A model generated the notes under the pieces. It saw only the letters and a program-made list of their open reading frames with translations. It did no database searches and had not been told where the DNA came from. The position numbers were made by a program, and so were the translations under genes. This document shows positions 1,874 to 41,492 of a stretch of DNA of 50,965 nt, piece by piece; the stretch's first letter is position 1; each line of letters opens with the position of its first letter. The stretch is from Bacteroidota bacterium (GTDB taxonomy: Bacteria; Bacteroidota; Bacteroidia; JABDFU01): NCBI GenBank assembly GCA_013286805.1, contig JABDEY010000007.1:1-50965 (forward strand), written 5' to 3'.

Positions 1874-3226
1874 TTAATGTTTCTCCTCCTGTTTCTTGTT
1901 CTCAGGAGCTGGAGCAGGTGGTTTTGGTTTAGGCTTAGGTTGGGGTTTTGGCTGAGGTTGTTGCTGCGGTTTAGGCTGCTGGGGCTGTGGCTGAACCTGA
2001 GATTTCTCAGCAGGCCTATTGTTAGGTTGACCCTGAGGTTCCGCTTGTTTTGGTTTAACCTCGTTTTTCATTTTCTCTTCCTCTGCCTTCTTCGTTTTCT
2101 CTTCCTCCGCCTTCTTCGTTTTCTCTTCCTCCGCCTTCTTTGTTTTCTCTTCCTCTGCCTTCTTCGTTTTCTCTTCCTCCGCCTTCTTCATTTTATCTTC
2201 CTCCGCTTTCTTCGTTTTATCTTCTCCTGCGCCTTTATTTGTTCGCTCATATTCTTCATTGCGGTTTTCATTTGGCTGTATTGCTTTTCCTGAAGCAGGT
2301 TGGGATTTACTCGCAGGGTTCATGTTTTGATGCACAGGCGCTCTGTGAGCCGGAGCCACGATCTCACTCTTGACAGCAACCTTAGCAGGAGCGGGTAGTG
2401 GGCCTTTGCCGGGATTAACTTTGGCAATAGCAGGACGATAGATGCTCAACTGTCCGCCCGTTACCTGAGAATGTCCGGGTGTGGAACTTTCATTAAAGGA
2501 AACCGGTTGAACCTGATGCCCGGTAACCCTTTCAACTTCACCTTGTTCAGGCCCTGCCATGAATGTTGTATGCCGGTCATTATCGTAATTCGTTCTGCTG
2601 ATCACAGTTGAATTATTCATGTATCCGTGGTATTCGCTTCTGGGAGCGTAATATTGGTACACCTCAGGGCTTGTAATGTATTCCTGCCGTACAAAAACAT
2701 AACGCTCCGGCGGAATATAATAATTGCTGTTAGCAGCCGCAAAGCTATATTCAGGAGTTAAAGGTGCCCAGCCATAATAACCAGGTGAACTTCTCCAGGA
2801 TACCCATGCCGGCCCCCATTGGGAGTTAGGAATCCAGTACCAACCATAGAAATTATCATAATCCCAGAGTCCATAATGAAATACGGCCCAGCCCCAGCTG
2901 TAATCAGATACCCAGGTCCATCCATAACTGGAATATACCCAATGACCGGCAGTTGAATAAGGAACAAAATCAGGCCCTGCAGCTGGAACCCAGACATATC
3001 CATACGTGGGGTTATTTATCCATTGCCCATAAGGACTCAATTCATCATAAAATTGTTGGTAGTTCCCCGCTGGCACTGGTTGCTGTTGCGGTGGGGGCAA
3101 TGGAGCCTGAGCCTGAGGTTGTGCTTGAGCCGTAGGCCCATCATCAACAATAACTGGTCCTCTGGTAACTACGCAGGAAGTAGCCAGAATACTTATCGGA
3201 ATTAAAATGGTCAGGATTGATTTCAT
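1874..3226 (-). CDS. DUF6600-like YXWVP-repeat lipoprotein with charged repeat tail
   Basis: This 450-residue protein has a signal peptide and lipobox (LATSC) at residues 13-17, so it is an exported lipoprotein. Residues about 58-190 carry Trp/Tyr/Gly-rich segments (YGYVWVP, GHWVY, YGWTWV, YGWYWIP, WGPAWVSW, YGWAPL) typical of DUF6600-like Bacteroidota proteins. A low-complexity tail follows: an eight-residue K-A-E-E-E-K-T-K repeat in about six copies, then Pro/Gln/Lys-rich sequence to the C terminus. The tail may span the periplasm or bind peptidoglycan or polyanions, but that is inference. It is divergent from the exporter gene at 3255, with only 28 bp between the starts. No enzymatic motif is visible. 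Confidence 0.75.
   Translation of the reverse strand: MKSILTILIPISILATSCVVTRGPVIVDDGPTAQAQPQAQAPLPPPQQQPVPAGNYQQFYDELSPYGQWINNPTYGYVWVPAAGPDFVPYSTAGHWVYSSYGWTWVSDYSWGWAVFHYGLWDYDNFYGWYWIPNSQWGPAWVSWRSSPGYYGWAPLTPEYSFAAANSNYYIPPERYVFVRQEYITSPEVYQYYAPRSEYHGYMNNSTVISRTNYDNDRHTTFMAGPEQGEVERVTGHQVQPVSFNESSTPGHSQVTGGQLSIYRPAIAKVNPGKGPLPAPAKVAVKSEIVAPAHRAPVHQNMNPASKSQPASGKAIQPNENRNEEYERTNKGAGEDKTKKAEEDKMKKAEEEKTKKAEEEKTKKAEEEKTKKAEEEKTKKAEEEKMKNEVKPKQAEPQGQPNNRPAEKSQVQPQPQQPKPQQQPQPKPQPKPKPKPPAPAPENKKQEEKH
2067..2222 (-). repeat. 24-bp in-frame tandem repeat in lipoprotein gene
   Basis: About 6.5 copies of a 24-bp unit. On the coding strand it encodes K-A-E-E-E-K-T-K; on the plus strand the units begin TTCGTTTTCTC. 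Copies differ mainly at synonymous or T/M and E/D positions. The length is a multiple of three, so copy-number change would keep the frame. Confidence 0.95.
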
Positions 3227-9578: not shown

Positions 9579-12311
9579 ATGGATAAATACTCCTACATAA
9601 GTAATGCCGAAATAGCTTCGGTAGATGAACTGTATCAGGCTTACATAGAGGACAATCAATCAGTAGCTCCGGATTGGAGGAAATTTTTTGAAGGATTTGA
9701 ATTCGCCCGCAGTAATTTTGAAGACAAAGAACCCGGTGCGCAGGCAGGCAGGGAAATTCCGGAAAGTGTACGTAAAGAATTCAACGTTATCAACCTGATA
9801 AATGGTTACCGTAGCAGAGGTCACCTGTTTACCAAAACGAATCCCGTCCGCGAACGCAGACATTATCTGCCAAACCTTGACATTGAGAATTTTGGTCTTG
9901 AGCCGGCCGACCTCGAAACAGTTTTTCATGCAGGGGGGCAAATCGGCATAGGCCCTTCAAAACTGAGGGACATCATTTCACATTTGAATCAGACGTATTG
10001 CCAATCTGTCGGAGCCGAATACATGTACATACGGGATCCTGTTGTCATCAAATGGTTACAGGACAAGATGGAGGGATGTAAGAATACCCCAAAATTCAGC
10101 ACGGACGAACGTAAATTGATTTTAAACAAACTAAACCACGCGGTAGCCTTCGAAAGTTTTCTGCACACGAAATTTGTCGGGCAAAAACGATTTTCGCTTG
10201 AAGGGGCAGAAACCGTCATCCCTGCCCTTGATGCCGTCTGTGAAAGAGGAGCTGAACTGGGAGTTGAGGATTTCGTCTTTGGCATGCCTCATCGCGGGCG
10301 CTTAAATGTATTGGCAAATATTCTTGAAAAAACCTATAAGGATATATTTACGGAGTTTGAAGGCCGTGTAGCTCAGGATTCAGTGTTCGACGGGGATGTC
10401 AAGTATCACCTGGGTTATTCTTCCGATAAGATAAGTCTGGGAGGCAAACCGATTCACATGAGCTTAACGCCTAATCCCTCTCACCTAGAGGCTGTGAACC
10501 CTGTAGTGGAAGGAATAGCCCGCGCTAAAATTGATAACAGGCATAACAAGGATAACAGTAAGGTATGTCCGATTCTTATGCATGGTGATGCTGCTCTGGC
10601 CGGCCAGGGTATTGTTTATGAAGTCATACAGATGTCTCAGCTGGAGGGATTTAAGACAGGAGGAACCATACATATTGTCGTCAATAACCAGATCGGTTTT
10701 ACGACAAATTACCTCGATGGCCGTTCCAGCACCTATTGTACGGATGTGGCCAAGGTTGTATTGTGTCCGGTGTTTCACGTAAACGGGGATGATGTGGAGG
10801 CGGTTGTTTATACTTCAAAACTGGCAATGGAGTTCCGCCAGACTTTCAAAAAGGATGTGTTTATTGATGTATTGTGTTACCGTAAATACGGGCACAATGA
10901 AGGAGATGAGCCAAGGTTTACCCAACCTTTGTTATACAAGGCGATTGCCGTGCATCCCAACCCCAAGGATATCTATCTGAAGCAATTGATTGGAGAAGGA
11001 ATAATAGATGCCGCCTTTGCGGAGGCCATGGAGAAAGATTTTAAAAATTTGCTGCAGGATAAGCTGGAGGAGGCAAAACGCTCAGAAAAGGCTGATATAG
11101 CTTCTTTCCTCAATGGACAATGGAAAGGCATACGCATGGCGACTGCTCAGGATTTTGAAAAGTCTCCGGATACTTCGGTAGATAAAAAATTATTCCTGGA
11201 AATTGCAGGAAAAACAACCCGGCTCCCTTCGGATAAAAAGTTCTTTAATAAAATAGAGAATATTTTTAAGGAGCGTCAGGGGATGATAGACAAAGACAAG
11301 TACGATTGGGCGATGGGTGAATTGATGGCTTATGCCACCCTGATGAACGAAGGATCGGATGTGCGTTTTAGCGGACAAGATGTAGAGCGGGGAACATTTT
11401 CTCACCGGCACGCTGTCGTAAAAGTTGAAGATTCAGAAGAAGAATATACTCCTTTGAATCGTTTTGGTGCCAAAGGGAAACTGGATATTTATAATTCCTT
11501 ATTGTCCGAGTATGCTGTTCTTGGTTTTGAGTTTGGTTATTCATTTGGGACGCCCGGAGATCTGGTGATCTGGGAAGCACAGTTTGGAGATTTTTTCAAC
11601 GGAGCGCAGATTATTATTGATCAGTTTATAACCTGTTCCGAATACAAATGGAGAAGAATGAACGGTTTGGTTATGCTGCTGCCCCATGGCTACGAAGGGC
11701 AGGGACCGGAGCATTCCAGCGGACGTATGGAACGGTTTTTACAACAATGCGGAGAAAACAATATCCAGATTGTTAACTGTACTACGCCTGCCAATCAGTT
11801 CCACGTTTTACGCAGGCAACTGAAACGTCAATTCCGTAAACCCCTGATTTGTTTCACACCTAAGAAATTATTGCGTTATCCGGCCTGTGTGTCCTCCGTA
11901 AGTGATTTTATTAGCGGAGGATTTCAGGAGGTGATGGACGATCCGAAAGCGGATGTGGTTTCCGTAAAAAAAATTGCGTTTTGCTGCGGAAAAATATATT
12001 ACGACCTGGCGGAAGGAAAAGAAAAGGCCGGAAAAACGGACGTAGCCATTATTCGCATCGAACAGCTTTATCCCTTTCCTGCAAAACAGATACAGGCGAT
12101 CGTTTCTAAATATAAAAACGCGAAGGACTATTGCTGGGTGCAGGAAGAGCCGGAGAACATGGGCGCCTGGAGTTTCATGATGCGTGTTTTTGGAAACATT
12201 CGTTTAAGATATATTGGGCGTCAGGAAAGTGCAACCCCGGCTACAGGATATGCTAAAGTTCATGCGGAACAGCAGGCAGGTATTGTGAGCAGGCTTTTTG
12301 ATAAAAATTAA
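9579..12311 (+). CDS. sucA: 2-oxoglutarate dehydrogenase E1 component
   Basis: A 910-residue thiamine-diphosphate enzyme that decarboxylates 2-oxoglutarate and transfers the succinyl group to the lipoyl arm of SucB in the TCA cycle. The N-terminal E2-binding segment (SYISNAEIASVDELYQAYIE) is present. It is followed by the E1 core with MPHRGRLNVLANI, the substrate and TPP regions LTPNPSHLEAVNPVVEG and HGDAALAGQG, and VNNQIGFTTN. The C-terminal half carries the transketolase-like domain (LLPHGYEGQGPEHSSGRME). Length and motifs are those of a full E1o. The next gene, 12 bp downstream, is its E2 partner; the E3 (lipoamide dehydrogenase) gene is not in this window. Confidence 0.97.
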   Translation: MDKYSYISNAEIASVDELYQAYIEDNQSVAPDWRKFFEGFEFARSNFEDKEPGAQAGREIPESVRKEFNVINLINGYRSRGHLFTKTNPVRERRHYLPNLDIENFGLEPADLETVFHAGGQIGIGPSKLRDIISHLNQTYCQSVGAEYMYIRDPVVIKWLQDKMEGCKNTPKFSTDERKLILNKLNHAVAFESFLHTKFVGQKRFSLEGAETVIPALDAVCERGAELGVEDFVFGMPHRGRLNVLANILEKTYKDIFTEFEGRVAQDSVFDGDVKYHLGYSSDKISLGGKPIHMSLTPNPSHLEAVNPVVEGIARAKIDNRHNKDNSKVCPILMHGDAALAGQGIVYEVIQMSQLEGFKTGGTIHIVVNNQIGFTTNYLDGRSSTYCTDVAKVVLCPVFHVNGDDVEAVVYTSKLAMEFRQTFKKDVFIDVLCYRKYGHNEGDEPRFTQPLLYKAIAVHPNPKDIYLKQLIGEGIIDAAFAEAMEKDFKNLLQDKLEEAKRSEKADIASFLNGQWKGIRMATAQDFEKSPDTSVDKKLFLEIAGKTTRLPSDKKFFNKIENIFKERQGMIDKDKYDWAMGELMAYATLMNEGSDVRFSGQDVERGTFSHRHAVVKVEDSEEEYTPLNRFGAKGKLDIYNSLLSEYAVLGFEFGYSFGTPGDLVIWEAQFGDFFNGAQIIIDQFITCSEYKWRRMNGLVMLLPHGYEGQGPEHSSGRMERFLQQCGENNIQIVNCTTPANQFHVLRRQLKRQFRKPLICFTPKKLLRYPACVSSVSDFISGGFQEVMDDPKADVVSVKKIAFCCGKIYYDLAEGKEKAGKTDVAIIRIEQLYPFPAKQIQAIVSKYKNAKDYCWVQEEPENMGAWSFMMRVFGNIRLRYIGRQESATPATGYAKVHAEQQAGIVSRLFDKN

Positions 12312-12323
12312 AATTATTTATAC

Positions 12324-13604
12324 ATGGCCATCATAGAACAAAAAGTACCAAGCCCTGGTGAATCCATAACGGAGGTGGTAATTGCCAGGTGGCTCAAAAA
12401 GGATGGAGAATTTGTTGGGAAAGATGAGGCCATAGCTGAGATTGATTCCGATAAGGCAACCCTTACACTTAATGCAGAAGAAAATGGGGCAATAAAATTG
12501 CTTGCCAAAGAAGGAGATACGGTGAAAGTAGGTCAGGTGGTGTGTTCGATTGATACGAGTATTAAAGGGGAATCAAAAAAGCCAGAGACAGGAAGCAAAA
12601 AGGCTGAAACAGAAAGCCAAAAGCCAATTGAAAAGGCTGCGAATAAAAATGAAAACAAGGAAATCCCGAAGCAGGAAATAGTAAACCTGAAACAGGAAGC
12701 CACTTACGCCAGCGGAACACCTTCTCCATCCGCTAAGAAAATGATGGATGAACAAAATATCCCCTCAGCTAAATTAAACGGGACCGGCAAAGATGGCCGG
12801 ATTACAAAAGGCGATGTTCTTGCAGCAATAAGTAATGGTTTTGATACTGCCACATTAAAACCAGAAGCAGGTTCAAGGGAAACGGAGCGAAAGAAGATGA
12901 CACCCCTGCGTAAAAAATTGGCCCAGCGTTTGGTTGCAGTTAAGAATACTACCGCCATGCTGACTACTTTTAACGAGGTGGATATGAGCGCCATTTATGC
13001 ACTGCGCACGAAATACAAAGACAAGTTTAAGGAGCAGTATGGTGTTGGTCTGGGGTTCATGAGTTTTTTTACAAAGGCTGTATGCGAAGCCTTGTACCTG
13101 TTCCCGTCAGTCAATGCAATGATAGACGGAGAAGAAATCGTTCATCACAACTATTGCGATGTAGGTATTGCAGTCAGCGCACCAAAAGGATTAGTGGTTC
13201 CCGTTTTAAAAAATGCGGAATGCTTATCCCTGGCTCAGATTGAAACAGAGATTAAGAACCTCGCCCTGAAAGCGAGAGACAATAAAATTGAGCTGAAAGA
13301 TATGGAAGGAGGAACGTTCACGATAACCAATGGCGGTGTATTCGGTTCCCTGATGTCAACACCTATTATTAATCCGCCTCAAAGTGCCATTCTCGGCATG
13401 CACAATGTGGTAGAACGGCCTATGGCAGTGAGCGGACAGGTAGTAATCCGGCCAATGATGTATGTAGCACTTTCTTATGATCACCGTATTATTGATGGGC
13501 GGGAATCCGTAGGGTTTTTAGTTAAAGTGAAAGAAATGTGTGAAAACCCTCAGAAAATGTTATTCGGAGGGAAAGATCCGAATGAGGTGTTGCTGGGATT
13601 TTAA
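12324..13604 (+). CDS. sucB: Dihydrolipoyl succinyltransferase, E2 of 2-oxoglutarate dehydrogenase
   Basis: A 426-residue E2 with domains in the usual order. A lipoyl domain occupies about residues 1-76 with the lipoylated Lys44 in DSDKAT. A Lys/Glu/Ala-rich flexible linker (about 77-125) follows, then a peripheral-subunit-binding domain (about 129-171). The catalytic acyltransferase domain ends with His387-x-x-x-Asp391-Gly. It forms the core of the complex and passes succinyl groups to CoA. It starts 12 bp after sucA and ends 2 bp before korA, indicating one operon. Confidence 0.97.
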
Positions 13605-13606
13605 GT

Positions 13607-15457
13607 ATGGAAAAGACAGAAACTAAACAGAACGTAGTCATTCTTTTTGCAGGGGATAGCGGAGATGGCATTCAGCTGATTGGCGCCCAATTTACCAATA
13701 CCAATGCGCTGTTTGGAAATGATGTCAGCACTTTTCCAAATTTTCCTGCTGAGATTCGGGCCCCACAAGGTACCATTCCCGGCGTTTCAGGTTTTCAGCT
13801 GCATTTTGGAAGTGTAGCACTTTTTACACCGGGAGATATCTGTGACGTTTTGGTAGTTATGAATGCGGCAGCGCTTAAAACAGACCTCAAAAATCTGAAA
13901 AAGGGAGGAACGATTATCGTCAACACAGGAGGTTTTGGCCCTCAGAATTTAAAACTGGCCAACTATCCTGTAGAAGTCAACCCATTGCTGGATCACTCCC
14001 TGGATCAATACAGGGTCATTGAAATTGATGTCACTAAACTGACAAAGAAAGCACTGGAAGGTTCCGGTTTGGGAACCAAGGAAATTGACCGTTCAAAAAA
14101 CATGTTTGTGCTTGGTTTTATCTACTGGATGTATAACCGCAGCCTGGCCAATACCATAGATTTTATCGAACGAAAATTCAGAACTCAGCCGGAGTTTATA
14201 GAATCCAACATAAAGATTTTAAAGGCAGGATACAATTACGGAGATATTACAGAAACTCCTATGACGCGTTACGAGGTGAAAGCGGCTCCTATGCCCAAGG
14301 GAACCTATCGCAGCATTACAGGAAATCATGCTACAGCCATGGGACTTATCTCAGCGGCTAATAAAGCCGGACTAACACTTTTTTATGGCTCGTACCCGAT
14401 TACACCTGCATCAGATATATTACATGAACTGGCGAAACATAAAAATTTCGGAGTAAAGACATTTCAGGCAGAAGATGAAATTGCAGCTGTGACTTCAGCC
14501 ATTGGCGCTGCCTTTGGGGGCAGTCTCGGCGTGACGGCTTCCTCAGGACCGGGGATTGCGCTTAAAACAGAAGCAATAGGTCTGGCATTGATGCTGGAAT
14601 TACCCCTTGTCATTTGCAATGTTCAAAGAGGTGGCCCAAGTACAGGTTTACCTACCAAAACAGAGCAGGCCGATTTACTTCAGGCAGTTTACGGGCGAAA
14701 TGGGGAAGCTCCTGTGCCTGTTATTGCAGCTTATTCACCATCAGATTGCTTTTATACTGTTTATGAAGCCTGCCGCATAGCCATTGAGCACATGACCCCG
14801 GTATTCTTTTTAAGTGACGGCTTTATTGCCAACGGGTCAGAGCCCTGGCAGTTTCCGCATGCGGAGAATTTAGAAAAGATCAACGTTAAGTATGCACATA
14901 ATGAGTTAAAAGAAGGGGAGAAATTTTTGCCTTACAAACGCAATGAGAAGATGACCCGCCCCTGGGCCATTCCTGGAACCAAAGGCCTCGAACACCGCAT
15001 TGGTGGCTTGGAGAAGGAGAATGAAACAGGCAATATTTCTTACGACCCGGACAACCACGAATTTATGGTGAAACTGAGGGCCGCAAGAGTTGAAAAAATT
15101 GCAGACTTTATTCCATTGCAGACCATTGATCAGGGAAAAGACAAAGGCAAACTACTGGTGATCGGCTGGGGATCTACTTACGGAGCTATCAAAACAGCTG
15201 TGAGGGAAGCTCTTGCAGAAGAGGTAGAAGTATCCCACATACATATCAAATACCTGAACCCGCTTCCTAAAAATATCGGAGCGATCCTTGAAAATTTCGA
15301 ACAGATACTTATTCCTGAAATGAATAACGGGCAATTGATAAAAATCATCCGGGAGAAATTTTTGGTGGATGCGAAGGGTTTAAATAAGATTAAGGGAATG
15401 CCTTTTACGGCGGGGGAGATTAAGCGTAAGATAAGTGACATTATAAACGTTAAATAG
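13607..15457 (+). CDS. korA: 2-oxoglutarate:ferredoxin oxidoreductase, alpha subunit (gamma-alpha fusion)
   Basis: A 616-residue fused subunit of a 2-oxoacid:ferredoxin oxidoreductase. The gamma domain (about residues 8-190, with FAGDSGDGIQLIG) is followed by the alpha pyrimidine-binding domain (about 225-480) with the diagnostic YPITPASDI and FQAEDEIAA motifs. The C-terminal domain follows. With KorB it interconverts 2-oxoglutarate and succinyl-CoA using ferredoxin, the oxygen-sensitive and reversible alternative to SucAB. 2-oxoglutarate as substrate is inferred from family resemblance and from the sucAB neighbours; another 2-oxoacid is possible. It begins 2 bp after sucB and ends 7 bp before korB. 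Confidence 0.93.
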   Translation: MEKTETKQNVVILFAGDSGDGIQLIGAQFTNTNALFGNDVSTFPNFPAEIRAPQGTIPGVSGFQLHFGSVALFTPGDICDVLVVMNAAALKTDLKNLKKGGTIIVNTGGFGPQNLKLANYPVEVNPLLDHSLDQYRVIEIDVTKLTKKALEGSGLGTKEIDRSKNMFVLGFIYWMYNRSLANTIDFIERKFRTQPEFIESNIKILKAGYNYGDITETPMTRYEVKAAPMPKGTYRSITGNHATAMGLISAANKAGLTLFYGSYPITPASDILHELAKHKNFGVKTFQAEDEIAAVTSAIGAAFGGSLGVTASSGPGIALKTEAIGLALMLELPLVICNVQRGGPSTGLPTKTEQADLLQAVYGRNGEAPVPVIAAYSPSDCFYTVYEACRIAIEHMTPVFFLSDGFIANGSEPWQFPHAENLEKINVKYAHNELKEGEKFLPYKRNEKMTRPWAIPGTKGLEHRIGGLEKENETGNISYDPDNHEFMVKLRAARVEKIADFIPLQTIDQGKDKGKLLVIGWGSTYGAIKTAVREALAEEVEVSHIHIKYLNPLPKNIGAILENFEQILIPEMNNGQLIKIIREKFLVDAKGLNKIKGMPFTAGEIKRKISDIINVK

Positions 15458-15464
15458 ATTTTTA

Positions 15465-16490
15465 ATGAGTTCAGTTGAGATGGATAAAATGACGGCGAAG
15501 GAGCTTGTTACTGATCAGGAAGTACGCTGGTGTCCGGGTTGCGGAGATTATTCTATCCTCAAGCAGGTTCAAACAGTCATTCCTGAGTTGGGTCTTAAGC
15601 GGGAAAATATTGTTTTTATTTCGGGAATAGGCTGTTCCTCCCGATTCCCTTATTACATGGAAACCTTTGGCATGCATAGCATTCATGGCCGTGCAACAGC
15701 GATCGCCAGCGGACTGAAAGCAACCCGCCCGGACCTGAGTGTATGGATTGTTACCGGAGACGGAGATTCCCTGTCCATTGGCGGTAACCATTTGATTCAT
15801 TTACTGAGAAGAAATTTTGATGTGAATATATTACTGTTCAACAATGAAATTTACGGTTTAACGAAAGGTCAGTATTCACCGACATCTCCGGAAGGATTGG
15901 TCACTAAGTCAACTCCGGCCGGATCACTTGATCATCCATTTAACCCACTGGCGCTTTGCATGGGTGCCGATGCTACATTTGTCGCCCGCACAATGGACAG
16001 GGACCCGATTCATTTGCGGGAATTATTGAAACGGGCACATGCGCATAAAGGAACTTCCTTACTGGAGATTTATCAGAATTGTAATGTGTTCAATGACGGG
16101 GCCTTTGAAGTGTTTACTGAAAAAGCGACAAAGAAAGTAAATACACTGTTTGTCGCTCATGACAAACCATTGGTATTCGGGCAAAATCTGGAAAAGGGTA
16201 TCATTCTGGATGGCTGGACACCCCGCTTAGTGAATGTCGCGGACCATTCAATTAATGATTTGTGGATACATGATGAAAAGGATCGCCTGAAAGCGTCTAT
16301 CCTTGTTCGTTTTTTCGATGATTCAAAACATACAGATGCGTTACCACGGCCTTTTGGAGTGTTTTACCAGGAAAACAGAAATACCTACGAAGATCAGATG
16401 AGCGCTCAGGTAGCTGAGGCAATAAAAAGCAAAGGGAAAGGCAATCTGGATGAATTATTAAGCGGCCGAAGTACGTGGAAGATTAGTTAG
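15465..16490 (+). CDS. korB: 2-oxoglutarate:ferredoxin oxidoreductase, beta subunit
   Basis: A 341-residue beta subunit that binds thiamine diphosphate and a [4Fe-4S] cluster. Cluster cysteines are in WCPGCG (Cys23, Cys26) and probably GIGCSS. The TPP/Mg site is GDGDSLSIGGNH, followed by NNEIYGLTKGQYSPTS, the conserved KorB loop. Length and motifs are complete. It closes the sucA-sucB-korA-korB run. Its final codons ATT-AGT-TAG form the left arm of a palindrome whose right arm holds the stop of the convergent nadE. Confidence 0.95.
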   Translation: MSSVEMDKMTAKELVTDQEVRWCPGCGDYSILKQVQTVIPELGLKRENIVFISGIGCSSRFPYYMETFGMHSIHGRATAIASGLKATRPDLSVWIVTGDGDSLSIGGNHLIHLLRRNFDVNILLFNNEIYGLTKGQYSPTSPEGLVTKSTPAGSLDHPFNPLALCMGADATFVARTMDRDPIHLRELLKRAHAHKGTSLLEIYQNCNVFNDGAFEVFTEKATKKVNTLFVAHDKPLVFGQNLEKGIILDGWTPRLVNVADHSINDLWIHDEKDRLKASILVRFFDDSKHTDALPRPFGVFYQENRNTYEDQMSAQVAEAIKSKGKGNLDELLSGRSTWKIS

Positions 16491-19252: not shown

Positions 19253-19747
19253 ATGGAATCTGTAATAATAACCGGGGAAACCAGAGAAGCAAAATACATA
19301 GCATTGTTGCCCCAGCTTAAAGCGCTGATCGAAGGCGAAAAGGATAGCTACGCGAACCTTGGCAATATTATTGCAGGCCTGAAACATGCCATGGACTTTT
19401 TTTGGGTGGGTATGTATTTGGTCAAAGAGCGTGAATTGGTACTCGGACCTTTTCAGGGCCCTGTAGCCTGCACCCGGATTGGATATGGCAAAGGAGTTTG
19501 CGGAACAAGCTGGAAAGAGAAGAAATCCATTATTGTACCTGATGTGGATCAGTTTTCCGGACATATAGCCTGCAGTTCGATGACTAAGTCGGAGATTGTC
19601 ATACCCTGTAGTGGGAAGAATGGAGATGTGCTTTTTGTGTTGGATGTGGATAGCACTATATTAAATGATTTCAGCAGTATAGATGAAAAATATTTGAAAG
19701 AGGTGGTTGGAATCATGGAGAAACAGGTTTTAGAGTTTTGTGTTTAA
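19253..19747 (+). CDS. msrC: GAF-domain free methionine-(R)-sulfoxide reductase
   Basis: A 164-residue single GAF domain of the fRMsr (YebR/MsrC) family, which reduces free methionine-R-sulfoxide. Three cysteines at 73, 83 and 107 keep the 10- and 24-residue spacings of the E. coli enzyme (84/94/118). They sit in GPVACTRI, GKGVCGTSW and GHIACSS. The start was set at ATG 19253 rather than the TTG seven codons upstream, because family members begin close to this methionine. It lies 43 bp after gldB on the same strand. Confidence 0.88.
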   Translation: MESVIITGETREAKYIALLPQLKALIEGEKDSYANLGNIIAGLKHAMDFFWVGMYLVKERELVLGPFQGPVACTRIGYGKGVCGTSWKEKKSIIVPDVDQFSGHIACSSMTKSEIVIPCSGKNGDVLFVLDVDSTILNDFSSIDEKYLKEVVGIMEKQVLEFCV

Positions 19748-19808
19748 AATTTTGAGTTTAGAGTTTAAAGTTTTGTGTTTAAGGTTTATTGTTTAAAGTT
19801 TATTGTTA
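19742..19808. repeat. Degenerate GTTTAAAGTTT-type short repeats
   Basis: A 67-bp A/T-rich stretch built from reiterated GTTTA, GTTTAAAG and TTTTGAGTTT motifs, filling the gap between msrC and the lipoprotein gene at 19816. It looks like decayed slippage repeats. Confidence 0.7.
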
Positions 19809-21627: not shown

Positions 21628-22611
21628 CTACTTAAGGATTTCAAGATTATCTGCATCAAGACCAACCGGAAACTGATTCCTGAAATTTTCGAGGTCATTA
21701 TAACTGATGGTTACCGTTTCAGCAGATTCTTCGTTTGGTTTTATTTTACTGATTGTTTCACCTTTAAAGTTAATCACCACCGAATCACCAGAATAATGCT
21801 CCTTGTTTCCGTCCGTACCAATTCGATTCACCCCAACTGTATAGGCTTGATTTTCTATCGCACGGGCTATCAGTAGTGATTTCCAGGGATGAATTCTTTT
21901 CTCCGGCCAGCTTGCAATATAGAGAAGCACATCATAGTCGGCTTTTAAATTCTCGATCCTTTTTTCGTTTCTTGGTTCTCCTAGCTCTCTTTTTTCTCCT
22001 CGTTCTCCTCGTTCTCCTCGTTCTCCTCGTTCTCCTCGTTCTCCTAGCTCTCTTTTTTCTCCTCGTTCTCCTCGTTCTCCTAGCTCTCTTTTTTCTCCTC
22101 GTTCTCCTCGTTCTCTTAGCTCTCTTGGTTCCACCGGAAATGTCCATTTATTTCTGCCCCAGGCCGGGAACCTTAAATCATAACAGATCAAAGGACAGAT
22201 TTTCCAGCCTTTTAAATCCGTAACGATTCGCTGATGACCGTGTGAGAAAGGAATGTCTTCACCGGACATACGGAACAGATGGCGTTTGTCATATACTTCG
22301 AAAGTGCCGTCCGGTCGAATCCATAATAAGCGGTTGTAATGCTTTTCCTGCTCTTCAATAATCAGGCTGCCGGTAACGACGCAGTTTTTCGCTCTGCTTT
22401 GGTTCTGCATCCACAGCATGGTTTTTCCATGCATTTTTTCAGAAACAGCTGCAGTATTCATAGTAAAACCCGTGTTGAACATTTCTGGCAATATAATCAG
22501 ATCGGTTTCATCTTTTAGGTTTGCAATTTGCCGGGAAAAATTTTCCAGGTTCTGATCAATACGTTCCCAGTACAGGTTGGATTGCAGAATGGTGATTCTC
22601 AGATCTTGCAT
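21628..22611 (-). CDS. Nitrilase-family omega-amidase (YafV-like) with repeat insertion
   Basis: A 327-residue carbon-nitrogen hydrolase with the full catalytic triad: Glu43 (LPEMFNTGF), Lys109 (DKRHLF) and Cys143 (ICYDLRFPAW). It resembles YafV/omega-amidase, which hydrolyses 2-oxoglutaramate and 2-oxosuccinamate (alpha-keto acid amides). Family members are about 255-275 residues. The excess is a low-complexity insert at about residues 162-214 made of G-E-R and G-E-K-R-E-L units, between the nucleophile strand and YDVLLYIASWPEKR. Without it the length is normal. Its start overlaps the end of the aminotransferase by 13 bp, so the two are translationally coupled and fit a glutamine transaminase-omega-amidase or methionine-salvage pair. 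Confidence 0.9.
   Translation of the reverse strand: MQDLRITILQSNLYWERIDQNLENFSRQIANLKDETDLIILPEMFNTGFTMNTAAVSEKMHGKTMLWMQNQSRAKNCVVTGSLIIEEQEKHYNRLLWIRPDGTFEVYDKRHLFRMSGEDIPFSHGHQRIVTDLKGWKICPLICYDLRFPAWGRNKWTFPVEPRELRERGERGEKRELGERGERGEKRELGERGERGERGERGERGEKRELGEPRNEKRIENLKADYDVLLYIASWPEKRIHPWKSLLIARAIENQAYTVGVNRIGTDGNKEHYSGDSVVINFKGETISKIKPNEESAETVTISYNDLENFRNQFPVGLDADNLEILK
21970..22128 (-). repeat. 9-bp in-frame tandem repeat inside the omega-amidase
   Basis: On the coding strand it consists of GGAGAACGA (Gly-Glu-Arg) units interrupted by GGAGAAAAA-AGAGAGCTA (Gly-Glu-Lys-Arg-Glu-Leu). About 17 nine-base units run between PREL and GEPR. Every unit keeps the reading frame. The high internal identity suggests recent slippage expansion. 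Confidence 0.95.
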
Positions 22612-23756
22612 AGCAGTTCAGCAGCTTTTTCCAGAGTTTCTTCTTTCTTGGCAAAGCAAAAGCGAAGAATTTTATTATCTACTGGTTTATGATAAAACAC
22701 AGATATGGGTATGGATGCAACGCCCGCTTCTTTGATCAAACGGACTGCATAGTCCGTATCTTTTTCAATGGTAATGGCACTGTAATCCAGCAATTGAAAA
22801 TAGGTTCCCGATGCAGGGCTGAATTTAAAACGCGAGTTTTTCAATAACCCATTAAAATAGTCCCTTTTTTTCTGATAAAAGCTTCCAAGGTCAAGGTAAG
22901 TATCCTGTTCTTTTAAATATTCTGCAAGCGCATACTGTATGGGTGTATTCACTGAAAAAACCAAAAACTGATGTACTTTTCTGAATTCAGTCATCAGATT
23001 ATGAGGAGCAACGCAATACCCCACCTTCCAGCCCGTAGCATGAAAAGTTTTTCCGAAGGAGGATACAATCAAACTGCGTTCCGCCAGAATTGGGAAACGT
23101 GCCACGCTTTGGTGTTGCTGGCCATCAAAAATAATGTGCTCATATACTTCATCACTTACAATGACTGCATCCGAACCTTTTACAATTTTTTCCAGTTTGC
23201 GCATATCGTCAGCGGTCCATACGCTTCCTGTAGGATTATTGGGTGTATTCAGGATGATCATTCGGGTACGGTGATTGAACATTTTTTTCACCTCGTCCCA
23301 GTCAATGGAATAATCAGGAGCTTTTAAACGCAGATAAACCGTTTTTCCACCTGCTACCTCAATCGCAGGCTGGTAACAGTCATAAGCAGGTTCAAAAACA
23401 ATCACCTCATCGTCTTCGCGCACAAGGGCTGCCACTGCAGTATAGATGGCCTGGGTAGCGCCAGCTGTTATGGTTATTTCAGTTTCAGGATCGTAGGATG
23501 TACCATATTGATTTTGCGTTTTTTTTGCAAGAATTGTTCGCAAAGGAAGTAAGCCCGGCATAGGGGCATATTGATTATGCCCTTTCAGCATCGCCTCATT
23601 TACCAGTTTTATGAGCAATTCAGAACACATAAAATCCGGAAATCCCTGGGATAAATTAATGGCATTGTGTTCCGCTGCCATTTTAGACATGACTGTGAAA
23701 ATAGTTGTCCCCACCTTTGGCAGTTTGGAATGTATTGTTCCCGGAAAGACAGGCAT
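22599..23756 (-). CDS. Methionine/glutamine aminotransferase (YbdL-like)
   Basis: A 385-residue class I/II PLP-dependent aminotransferase closest in pattern to YbdL and kynurenine/glutamine transaminase K. Visible features are NLSQGFPDF at 34-42, NNPTG at 173-177, Asp202 and Tyr205 in SDEVYEH, the PLP-lysine Lys236 in SSFGKTFHATGWKVGY, and the C-terminal LRFCFAK arginine for the substrate carboxylate. It probably transaminates 2-oxo-4-methylthiobutyrate with glutamine; the downstream, overlapping omega-amidase would hydrolyse the resulting 2-oxoglutaramate and pull the reaction forward. The substrate assignment is inference from family and operon. Confidence 0.9.
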   Translation of the reverse strand: MPVFPGTIHSKLPKVGTTIFTVMSKMAAEHNAINLSQGFPDFMCSELLIKLVNEAMLKGHNQYAPMPGLLPLRTILAKKTQNQYGTSYDPETEITITAGATQAIYTAVAALVREDDEVIVFEPAYDCYQPAIEVAGGKTVYLRLKAPDYSIDWDEVKKMFNHRTRMIILNTPNNPTGSVWTADDMRKLEKIVKGSDAVIVSDEVYEHIIFDGQQHQSVARFPILAERSLIVSSFGKTFHATGWKVGYCVAPHNLMTEFRKVHQFLVFSVNTPIQYALAEYLKEQDTYLDLGSFYQKKRDYFNGLLKNSRFKFSPASGTYFQLLDYSAITIEKDTDYAVRLIKEAGVASIPISVFYHKPVDNKILRFCFAKKEETLEKAAELLCKI

Positions 23757-35384: not shown

Positions 35385-36644
35385 GTGCATAAACCTATTT
35401 ACCTCGATTATGCCTCCACGACTCCGGTTGATAAACGGGTACTGGAAAGTATGTTGCCCTATTTTTCTGAAAAGTCAGGTAATCCTGCGAGCCGCACGCA
35501 TTCCTTTGGCTGGATAGCGGAAGAGGCGGTCAAATCAGCAAGGGAAAGGGTTGCAAACCTTATCAATTGCAGTGAACAGGAAATCATTTTTACCTCTGGT
35601 TCTACTGAAGCGATCAACCTTGCCATTAAGGGGGTCTTTGAGAATTACCAGAGCAAGGGCCGGCATATTGTGACTGTAGCAACAGAACACAGGGCAGTTT
35701 TGGATACCTGCAAAGCCCTTGAAAAAAAAGGTGCTGAGGTTACGTATTTGCCTGTAAACAATGAAGGATTGATCGATTTGAATTTAATCGAAAAGTCAAT
35801 AACAGACTCTACGATTCTGGTCTGTGTTATGTTTGCCAATAACGAAACCGGGGTAATTCAGTCCATGAGGTCTATTGCTGATATAGTTCACTCACGCGGT
35901 AGCATTTTAATGAGTGATGCTACGCAGGCAGTTGGTAAGATACCTGTTGATATACAAGCCGAACATATAGATTTGTTATGTTTGTCGGCACATAAATTGT
36001 ATGGACCTAAGGGGGCAGGAGCCTTGTTTGTTCGCCGGAAGAATCCCCGGGTTACTTTATATCCATTGATACATGGAGGGGGACATGAACGTGGTTTAAG
36101 GTCCGGAACACTGAATGTTCCCGCTATCGTGGGCCTTGGTAAGGCATCTGAATTTGCGAAAGCTGAGATGGGAGAGGAAGGTCTCAGGATATCAGCATTG
36201 AGAGCATTTTTTGAAGAGGCCTTGATGAGTTTACCGGAACAAGCCTGTAAGAATTTGCCTGAACAGGCCTTTAAGAATCTACCGGAACAAGCCTGTAAGA
36301 ATTTGCCTGAACAGGCCTTTAAGAATTTACCTGAACAAGCCTATATAAAGACTAATGTTGTAACGATAAATGGGCACATTAAAAACCGTCTGCCTAACAT
36401 CAGCAGTCTTGCTTTCAAAGGCTTTAAAGCAGATCAGTTAATTACAAAAATGCCTGAGATAGCAGTAGCTGCCGGCTCGGCTTGTTCCTCTGCTATTGCT
36501 GAGCCTTCGCATGTATTGACCGCCATGGGCTTAAGTCAGGAGGAAGCGTATTCAAGCATTCGTTTCAGCCTTGGGAAATATACCAGCAGGGAAGAGGTGG
36601 AGTATGTGGTGGAAAAGGTAAAAACGGTACTCGGTGAACAGTAA
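35385..36644 (+). CDS. Cysteine desulfurase with repeat insertion
   Basis: A 419-residue IscS/NifS-type PLP enzyme that removes sulfur from cysteine for Fe-S clusters and thiolated tRNA. Visible are the PLP-stacking His102 (TEHRAV), the NNET motif, Asp178 and Gln181 in DATQAVGK, the PLP-lysine Lys204 in SAHKLYGPKG, and the sulfur-accepting Cys367 in GSACSS. The start is GTG. Relative to typical lengths (about 380) it has an extra ~39 residues: residues 283-321 are five copies of an L-P-E-Q-A-x-K-N octapeptide, inserted in the small domain before NGHIKNRLPNIS. No iscU neighbour is present. It is divergent from the fusion gene. Confidence 0.93.
   Translation: MHKPIYLDYASTTPVDKRVLESMLPYFSEKSGNPASRTHSFGWIAEEAVKSARERVANLINCSEQEIIFTSGSTEAINLAIKGVFENYQSKGRHIVTVATEHRAVLDTCKALEKKGAEVTYLPVNNEGLIDLNLIEKSITDSTILVCVMFANNETGVIQSMRSIADIVHSRGSILMSDATQAVGKIPVDIQAEHIDLLCLSAHKLYGPKGAGALFVRRKNPRVTLYPLIHGGGHERGLRSGTLNVPAIVGLGKASEFAKAEMGEEGLRISALRAFFEEALMSLPEQACKNLPEQAFKNLPEQACKNLPEQAFKNLPEQAYIKTNVVTINGHIKNRLPNISSLAFKGFKADQLITKMPEIAVAAGSACSSAIAEPSHVLTAMGLSQEEAYSSIRFSLGKYTSREEVEYVVEKVKTVLGEQ
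36231..36347 (+). repeat. 24/48-bp in-frame tandem repeat in cysteine desulfurase
   Basis: Five 24-bp units encode LPEQACKN/LPEQAFKN alternately. The first two form a 48-bp block that is repeated with a single base difference, then a fifth unit (LPEQAYIK) follows. The near-identity points to a recent duplication. Confidence 0.95.
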
Positions 36645-39970: not shown

Positions 39971-41398
39971 TCAATCAGTTTTCAGCCCTAGTTCCCTGAA
40001 CTGGTCTTCCCTGAGAATATTCGGCACAAGCATTCCAGGGTCGGGCATTGGGGTTGGTACAGCAAGTGGTAGTTTCGCCCTTTCATTACTGTCAAAAAAT
40101 CTGATCGAATTGTCATAAGCCCGGGCGTAATTTCTCGCCAGAGGGAATTGCCTGAAAACATAAATATTCAACAACGAAACGGAAAGCAAGACAAACACCA
40201 AGGCATAAAAAGATTGCACCTTATCCGAAAAATTCAATTTCAGAATTAAGGCCCATCCCCAGATACAAATACAGGGTAGTGCAACAAAGTTGAAAGGAGC
40301 CCAGGCCCTTTCAGGACCGGTACCATTCAGGAAAATAGAATGGAACCCAATCGTAAACACAGCCAATGAAAAGAGGAGAATTAAGGCTGAAATGAACAAT
40401 ACATTTTTTTTGCTAAAAAACTTTTTGGTTTTTTCTCCGGTAAGCAAATTCAAGCTAAAAAAGAGAGCGAAAATCAATGCAAGGGTCATTCCGTTTTTTC
40501 GTTGAGTCAATATGTCAGCCCAGATAAGGTGGTCGTGAATTGGGGAAGCATCCCTCAGATTCATCACAACTGCAGCATGCTGGCTTTCATAAATTTTCCG
40601 GTTATACGTCCCTGGAGCCGATAAGGCAAATGCCAATGAGACAGTAAGCGACAAAAACCCTATCCGAATTTTCTTTCCGGGAATACTTTTCATAAAAACC
40701 CCAAATCTTTTCCTAAACAAGAGGAAGAGGTAAAAAAGTGCAATAAGGGCAAACAAAAGAATGGCAAATATCTCTGATGATCCTCCTATATATAGCCCAC
40801 TCGCCAGAATAAGGAAGTAATCTAACAACCGGGTTCTCTTTTTTATAATCATCAATAACAGCAGGCAAAAGAAAATTAAAGGCTGAACCTGATCAAAGGA
40901 GGCAATCACCCAGAAAAATACTTCGCTGGTCTGAAACATAAAGAAAAACAAGGCAGCACAAAACAAGATGGAAATATTAAAGCGGGTCAGGACTGAAGGC
41001 ACTTTTGAATCTAAAGGCAATCCTGAAGTTATATGCAGATCAGGTGATACGGATGCACCAAATGCTACGTATTGAATTCCTGCAGTAGCAATTTTAAAAA
41101 CCAGGTAAATCAGCGCCGAAATGGAAAAGCAGGAATAGATAAATACAAGAAAGCGCAATCCGGCATACGACTTCACATGCCCAAACCATAAATAAAAGTA
41201 ACTAAGGGAGGCCCAGCGGCAACTCCAGTTTAAATAATAATATTTTAAGGTTCCAAACCATCCGTTCTTCCCGAAAGAAATTAAAAGGTCATAATCTTCT
41301 TCCGAAAAGCGGGTATAATATGCAAGCAGGAAATAAAAAGCCAAAAACGAAAGACTCAGCAGAAATAAAAGGGTATTCAGGAGTTTATCCTTACTCAA
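39971..41398 (-). CDS. DUF6056-like polytopic membrane protein (GT-C-type)
   Basis: 475 residues with about ten hydrophobic segments. An early luminal loop has the acidic TRFSEEDYDLL motif followed by YLNWSCRWASLSYFYLW, as in DUF6056/GT-C-like proteins that may transfer sugars from polyprenyl-phosphate donors. The final ~40 residues are soluble. The start is TTG: no ATG lies nearby and the frame upstream runs into the tandem repeat. The substrate is unknown. It is downstream of trhO on the same strand, separated by the 19-bp repeat array. Confidence 0.7.
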   Translation of the reverse strand: MSKDKLLNTLLFLLSLSFLAFYFLLAYYTRFSEEDYDLLISFGKNGWFGTLKYYYLNWSCRWASLSYFYLWFGHVKSYAGLRFLVFIYSCFSISALIYLVFKIATAGIQYVAFGASVSPDLHITSGLPLDSKVPSVLTRFNISILFCAALFFFMFQTSEVFFWVIASFDQVQPLIFFCLLLLMIIKKRTRLLDYFLILASGLYIGGSSEIFAILLFALIALFYLFLLFRKRFGVFMKSIPGKKIRIGFLSLTVSLAFALSAPGTYNRKIYESQHAAVVMNLRDASPIHDHLIWADILTQRKNGMTLALIFALFFSLNLLTGEKTKKFFSKKNVLFISALILLFSLAVFTIGFHSIFLNGTGPERAWAPFNFVALPCICIWGWALILKLNFSDKVQSFYALVFVLLSVSLLNIYVFRQFPLARNYARAYDNSIRFFDSNERAKLPLAVPTPMPDPGMLVPNILREDQFRELGLKTD

Positions 41399-41492
41399 TT
41401 TAGTTGAAATTATTAGATTTAGTTGAAATTATTAGATTTAGTTGAGATTCTTAGATTTAGTTGGGATTATTAGATTTTATTTGAGATTAAGG
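41398..41492. repeat. 19-bp tandem repeat array
   Basis: Five copies of ATTTAGTTGAAATTATTAG, the first two identical, the third and fourth with one to two changes each and the fifth degenerate. The array begins at the start codon of the membrane-protein gene and runs into the last codons of trhO. Confidence 0.9.

Follow-up and report, generated by a model that had tools for sequence, protein, structure and literature searches.

The omega-amidase gene and its neighborhood

The window (the whole stretch of DNA that was analyzed, 50,965 nucleotides of contig JABDEY010000007.1 in assembly GCA_013286805.1) belongs to an uncultured Bacteroidota bacterium whose source genome is a draft metagenome assembly of 136 contigs, 56% complete and with a GC content of ~41%. 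Its minus strand encodes a YafV-like CN-hydrolase with a tandem repeat inside the catalytic domain, adjacent to an aminotransferase gene. The features at this locus are as follows.

22599-23756, minus strand: methionine aminotransferase, the upstream neighbor, with a 13-bp overlap with the omega-amidase gene (NF006569, 604 bits against a cut-off of 420)
21628-22611, minus strand: omega-amidase (YafV-like CN-hydrolase), 327 aa (NF007757, PF00795, and AlphaFold model against 2e11)
22483-22485, minus strand: codon of catalytic Glu43 (LPEMF), invariant in 38 sequences
22285-22287, minus strand: codon of catalytic Lys109 (YDKRH), invariant in 38 sequences
22183-22185, minus strand: codon of the nucleophile Cys143 (CYDLRFP), invariant in 38 sequences
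21937-22149, minus strand: the whole variable loop, residues 155 to 225, between RN154 and Y226 (from alignments, the loop-length table, and pLDDT)
21975-22126, minus strand: tandem array of the 9-bp unit GGAGAACGA (GER) with variants GGAGAAAAA (GEK) and AGAGAGCTA (REL) (from TRF, the in-frame parse, and shuffles)

An earlier note on this DNA had read the gene as an omega-amidase with Glu43, Lys109, and Cys143 intact, and both statements are borne out. The protein scores 264.2 bits against NF007757 (cut-off of 249) and matches PF00795 above the gathering score (E = 5.7e-29), and the three catalytic residues are invariant across the 38 aligned sequences, as is Glu118. Both sequence and fold place PDB 2e11 nearest among solved structures; the AlphaFold model, built from the same 38-sequence alignment, superposes on it with a TM-score of 0.95 over the target and an rmsd of 2.2, which places the protein within the CN-hydrolase fold. 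Omega-amidase clears alpha-ketoglutaramate, rendering glutamine transamination irreversible (PMC6302742), and the pairing of this gene with an aminotransferase gene fits the glutamine transaminase/omega-amidase route. The insert-bearing enzyme presumably still hydrolyzes alpha-ketoglutaramate from the neighboring aminotransferase. Elsewhere in the window, a plus-strand stretch (9579-16490) appears to encode 2-oxoglutarate dehydrogenase E1 and E2, directly followed by a pair of genes resembling a two-subunit 2-oxoacid:ferredoxin oxidoreductase.

An in-frame 9-bp array within a variable loop

TRF gave the array a score of 227, with a period of 36 bp in 4.5 copies or, alternatively, a period of 9 bp in 15.7 copies. 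The 36-bp higher-order unit reads GER-GER-GEK-REL; at one point GER occurs five times in succession, and a few 9-mers are variants seen once. In full, the in-frame 9-mers run REL RER GER GEK REL GER GER GEK REL GER(x5) GEK REL GEP. This frame is that of the minus-strand ORF 21628-22611, and the boundaries agree within a few bases with 21970-22128, where the earlier note had placed the in-frame expansion of a 9-bp repeat. Shuffling the codons of the gene 300 times gave TRF scores no higher than 54, and shuffling those of the insert itself 300 times gave none above 135; both ceilings stay far below 227, so the array is real and more than a product of composition, and chance is excluded. The units differ from one another mostly by amino-acid-changing substitutions, with no sign of conservation at the protein level, and both edges of the array carry GAACCAAGA, which is also a variant of the 9-bp unit. 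Among the 70 residues of the insert that were counted are 20 E, 16 R, and 5 K, giving a charge-balanced composition. As a run of tandem units in the range of 9 to 60 bp that lies within an ORF and keeps its frame, the GER array is an intragenic minisatellite.

Two other readings of this DNA were rejected. A collagen-like domain in the insert scores 23.9 bits against PF01391, under the cut-off of 27.2; the weak Pfam and NCBIfam matches, below cut-off, stem from the G-X-X composition, and the REL units break the Gly register. The antisense ORF over the array (21876-22223, plus strand) translates as LLVLLVLL, a shadow of the coding sequence on the opposite strand.

The array occupies a loop that begins shortly after the nucleophile Cys143 (from RN154) and runs up to Y226 of the next core strand. 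This loop measures 71 aa here versus 15, 19, and 19 aa in the omega-amidase orthologues of three congeners, in which the GER array is absent, and the resulting difference of +52 to +56 residues brackets the ~53 added residues estimated beforehand. The enzyme had also been described as otherwise of standard length, and without the insert it does match the family's normal 271-279 aa. At the DNA level the congeners are ~66-72% identical, with the best congener match at 72% over the first 468 bp. Among the other relatives parsed, in a table that leaves out ten loci, the loop is usually 3-5 aa long, with lengths of 8-25 aa in some and 40 aa in a Cytophagales bacterium (L071). The AlphaFold model has a mean pLDDT of 85.8; values exceed 90 over most of the core and drop to about 44-60 in the insert, where a low-confidence helix is placed at residues 162-176. 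Modeled in this way, the insert is probably a disordered surface loop, in keeping with the earlier suggestion.

Repeats of other kinds were found in the same loop of two unrelated lineages. The omega-amidase of L071 carries an 18-bp repeat (DLIPKN) that is independent of the GER array. That of G098 (L005) contains, in frame, the sequence TPNPSPSGEG, which derives from a dispersed palindrome, CCCCTCTCC-TTCA-GGAGAGGGG; this palindrome has 21 pattern matches in the G098 genome at ≤3 mismatches, one of them inside the omega-amidase gene, and the pattern search returned 0 matches in G000, G004, and G005. The occurrence of three unrelated repeat kinds in one loop indicates that it is a permissive site. 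We also observed an EEGK-like repetitive stretch in the L071 loop.

Inserts in other enzymes of the same genome

Arrays in long ORFs were inspected by hand over 1.21 Mb, about half of the genome, and cysteine desulfurase, BshC, DAHP synthase-chorismate mutase, and HrpB were found to carry tandem-repeat inserts of 12 to 40 residues that are missing in the relatives compared. Together with the omega-amidase these make up a list of five enzymes that refers to this genome only. The first of the four lies in the window and the others on separate stretches.

35385-36644, plus strand: IscS/NifS-like cysteine desulfurase, with Aminotran_5 split into two matched stretches (PF00266, E = 2.9e-80)
36212-36342, plus strand: second in-frame array, 24-bp unit (LPEQACKN/LPEQAFKN), ~40 extra residues, in the cysteine desulfurase (TRF score of 220)
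L168, 13025-13119: BshC insert, 21-bp unit at 100% match, ~25-30 extra residues, absent in the relatives aligned
L152, 16396-16431: DAHP synthase-chorismate mutase insert, 24 added residues, in part from an 18-bp duplication, absent in the relatives aligned
L161, 7634-7677: HrpB insert, 12 extra residues, absent in the relatives aligned

The best NCBIfam match of the cysteine desulfurase is IscS PRK14012 at 486 bits, under its cut-off of 548, and alignment showed its insert to be absent in two full-length congener orthologues and in class relatives. In HrpB the extra units are copies of a native conserved QLGA stretch that is present in all five congeners, which points to a local seed and is the most direct case of copying from adjacent native sequence. 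The motifs of the four inserts differ widely (LPEQACKN, PQAPSGN, PGIHSN, and RQLGAI). With at least four further core enzymes bearing similar inserts, the array appears to reflect a genome-wide habit and not a device special to the omega-amidase. The earlier note had called tandem insertions inside catalytic domains uncommon; the insert itself stands, but it is not an isolated oddity, given those at least four other conserved enzymes and the loops of two unrelated lineages.

We counted arrays with periods of 6-60 in samples of 1.21 Mb from this genome, 0.80 Mb from the congener G004, and 0.32 Mb from the congener G005. The density was 51.9/Mb in this genome versus 17.0/Mb in a sample of stretches around the omega-amidase gene at 80 other Bacteroidota loci (p = 0.0007), a sample biased to one neighborhood, and the excess over the congeners was not significant (36.2/Mb in G004, p = 0.11; 28.1/Mb in G005, p = 0.08). 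A raised array rate in the genus is possible. The period is divisible by three in 25 of 26 arrays within long ORFs versus 12 of 37 elsewhere, an excess that the choice of long ORFs itself favors.

Several further repeats were seen. Within the window, ORF 1874-3226 contains a 24-bp repeat of KAEEEKTK units (2067-2224, minus strand) toward the C-terminus of what is probably a lipoprotein, and arrays of 7/14/21-bp (TTTAGAG) and 19-bp units lie at or just beside gene ends (19729-19802 and 41398-41489). Several contigs of the same genome (L044, L059, L148, L149, and L160) encode a family of large repeat proteins with a 165-bp unit (SVSISADGNTAIVGG). L062 (2-7075, plus strand) encodes a very long GPTGATG collagen-like repeat protein that runs past the end of the stretch.

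Origin of the array

We consider it likely that this minisatellite arose through local tandem duplication within an insertion-tolerant surface loop, with selection filtering frame and fold. An error of assembly, affecting either the presence of the repeat or the number of its copies in this draft metagenome-assembled genome, is improbable. The genome is fragmentary, the array at 152 bp is about as long as a short read, and assemblies are known to go wrong at tandem repeats, collapse included (PMC6868369), so the copy number could be wrong. Such an error would, however, be likelier to shorten an array than to invent one, and the invention of in-frame arrays in five enzymes is unlikely; the array also has internal variant units in irregular order between unique flanks, and it is one of many different arrays in a genome where periods divisible by three prevail in long ORFs, even if the selection of such ORFs contributes to that excess.

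An adaptive role for the insert, as a tunable charged loop that alters oligomerization, localization, stability, or the binding of a partner such as the neighboring aminotransferase and is switched by copy number, seems quite improbable. The insert is strongly charged and charge-balanced, and it follows the post-nucleophile helix. In nitrilases, the region of this helix forms the dimer interface. A physical role has, moreover, been proposed for the low-complexity tails that Deinococcus housekeeping enzymes carry (PMC2904767). Against this, substitutions among the array units mostly change the amino acid, as noted above, and show no protein-level conservation, the insert is missing from the three congeners and from nearly every other relative, and the quite different composition of the inserts in unrelated enzymes argues against one function.

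Decay of the gene, with the insert marking a loss of omega-amidase function, is very improbable: an insert of this size within a catalytic domain might suggest it, but the frame is open, the catalytic and invariant residues are all kept, the NF007757 score exceeds its cut-off, the core is modeled with high confidence, and the gene overlaps an intact aminotransferase gene. That a mobile element or a dispersed repeat delivered the array is hardly credible, for although the palindrome of G098 did enter the same loop and GAACCAAGA lies at both array edges, that edge repeat is a variant of the array's own unit and the array DNA was found at a single locus in its own genome and, at ≤2 mismatches in 27 bases, in 0 of the 394 further class genomes searched. 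Its absence from the rest of the genome and the class indicates that the array arose in place; likewise, its single locus separates it from an RPE-like dispersed in-ORF element, which would occur in multiple copies.

Local duplication would have begun from a short purine-rich stretch within the loop that joins the post-nucleophile-elbow helix to the next core strand. We infer that the GER array originated from native sequence, although the seed itself is not kept in the congeners. Its units probably multiplied by replication slippage or unequal recombination, and the in-frame insert would have been tolerated because the length and sequence of the loop already varied within the family. The product would be a charged, probably disordered surface loop on an enzyme that retains its fold and catalytic residues, and selection probably filters for frame and fold only, leaving the insert itself presumably neutral. 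An identical process may have put repeats into four or more further core enzymes in the same genome. A broader proposal, that this is a Bacteroidota lineage with a raised minisatellite birth rate in which in-frame, lineage-specific repeat loops systematically remodel core enzymes as a bacterial counterpart of the Plasmodium low-complexity inserts, is tentative and in our view rather doubtful.

Large natural insertions in catalytic domains reveal which enzyme loops tolerate extra sequence, and five cases in one genome amount to a small natural experiment in how protein structure filters slippage in coding DNA. If the array rate is truly raised in this lineage, the question becomes which difference in replication or repair lies behind it. 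Annotation is affected as well: inserts of this kind break up domain matches and may give ordinary enzymes a multidomain or collagen-like appearance.

Comparison with known systems

The enzyme resembles YafV-type omega-amidases (CN-hydrolase family; PDB 2e11 from Xanthomonas campestris) in family score, catalytic residues, fold, and a neighboring methionine/glutamine aminotransferase, and is set apart by a single loop that holds ~53 additional repeat residues. The Rickettsia palindromic elements and similar dispersed repeats within ORFs also show housekeeping proteins accommodating repetitive DNA in frame; the palindrome in the G098 omega-amidase looks to be of this kind, whereas the GER array, not being dispersed, is different. 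Intragenic minisatellites are already known as a kind, and those of bacteria, including VNTRs, share with the array a short unit that lies in frame inside coding sequence. They are found, however, in surface or adhesin proteins or in linkers, whereas the array lies in the catalytic domain of a cytoplasmic enzyme and is known from one genome. Our literature search, which left most subscription journals outside its reach, found no paper on minisatellites lying inside the domains of several core enzymes in a single bacterial genome.

By analogy, the genome-wide pattern across several enzymes resembles the low-complexity inserts of Plasmodium proteins. In Plasmodium falciparum and Dictyostelium, repeat tracts occur across many protein families, have been attributed to slippage and unequal crossover, and tend toward loops and disorder (PMC3749963). 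The likeness would lie in the spread of repeats over proteins, in slippage, and in this tendency toward loops and disorder; unlike the AAT triplets of those eukaryotes, the repeats described here are minisatellites with units of 9-24 bp in a bacterium of ~41% GC, and far fewer proteins are affected.
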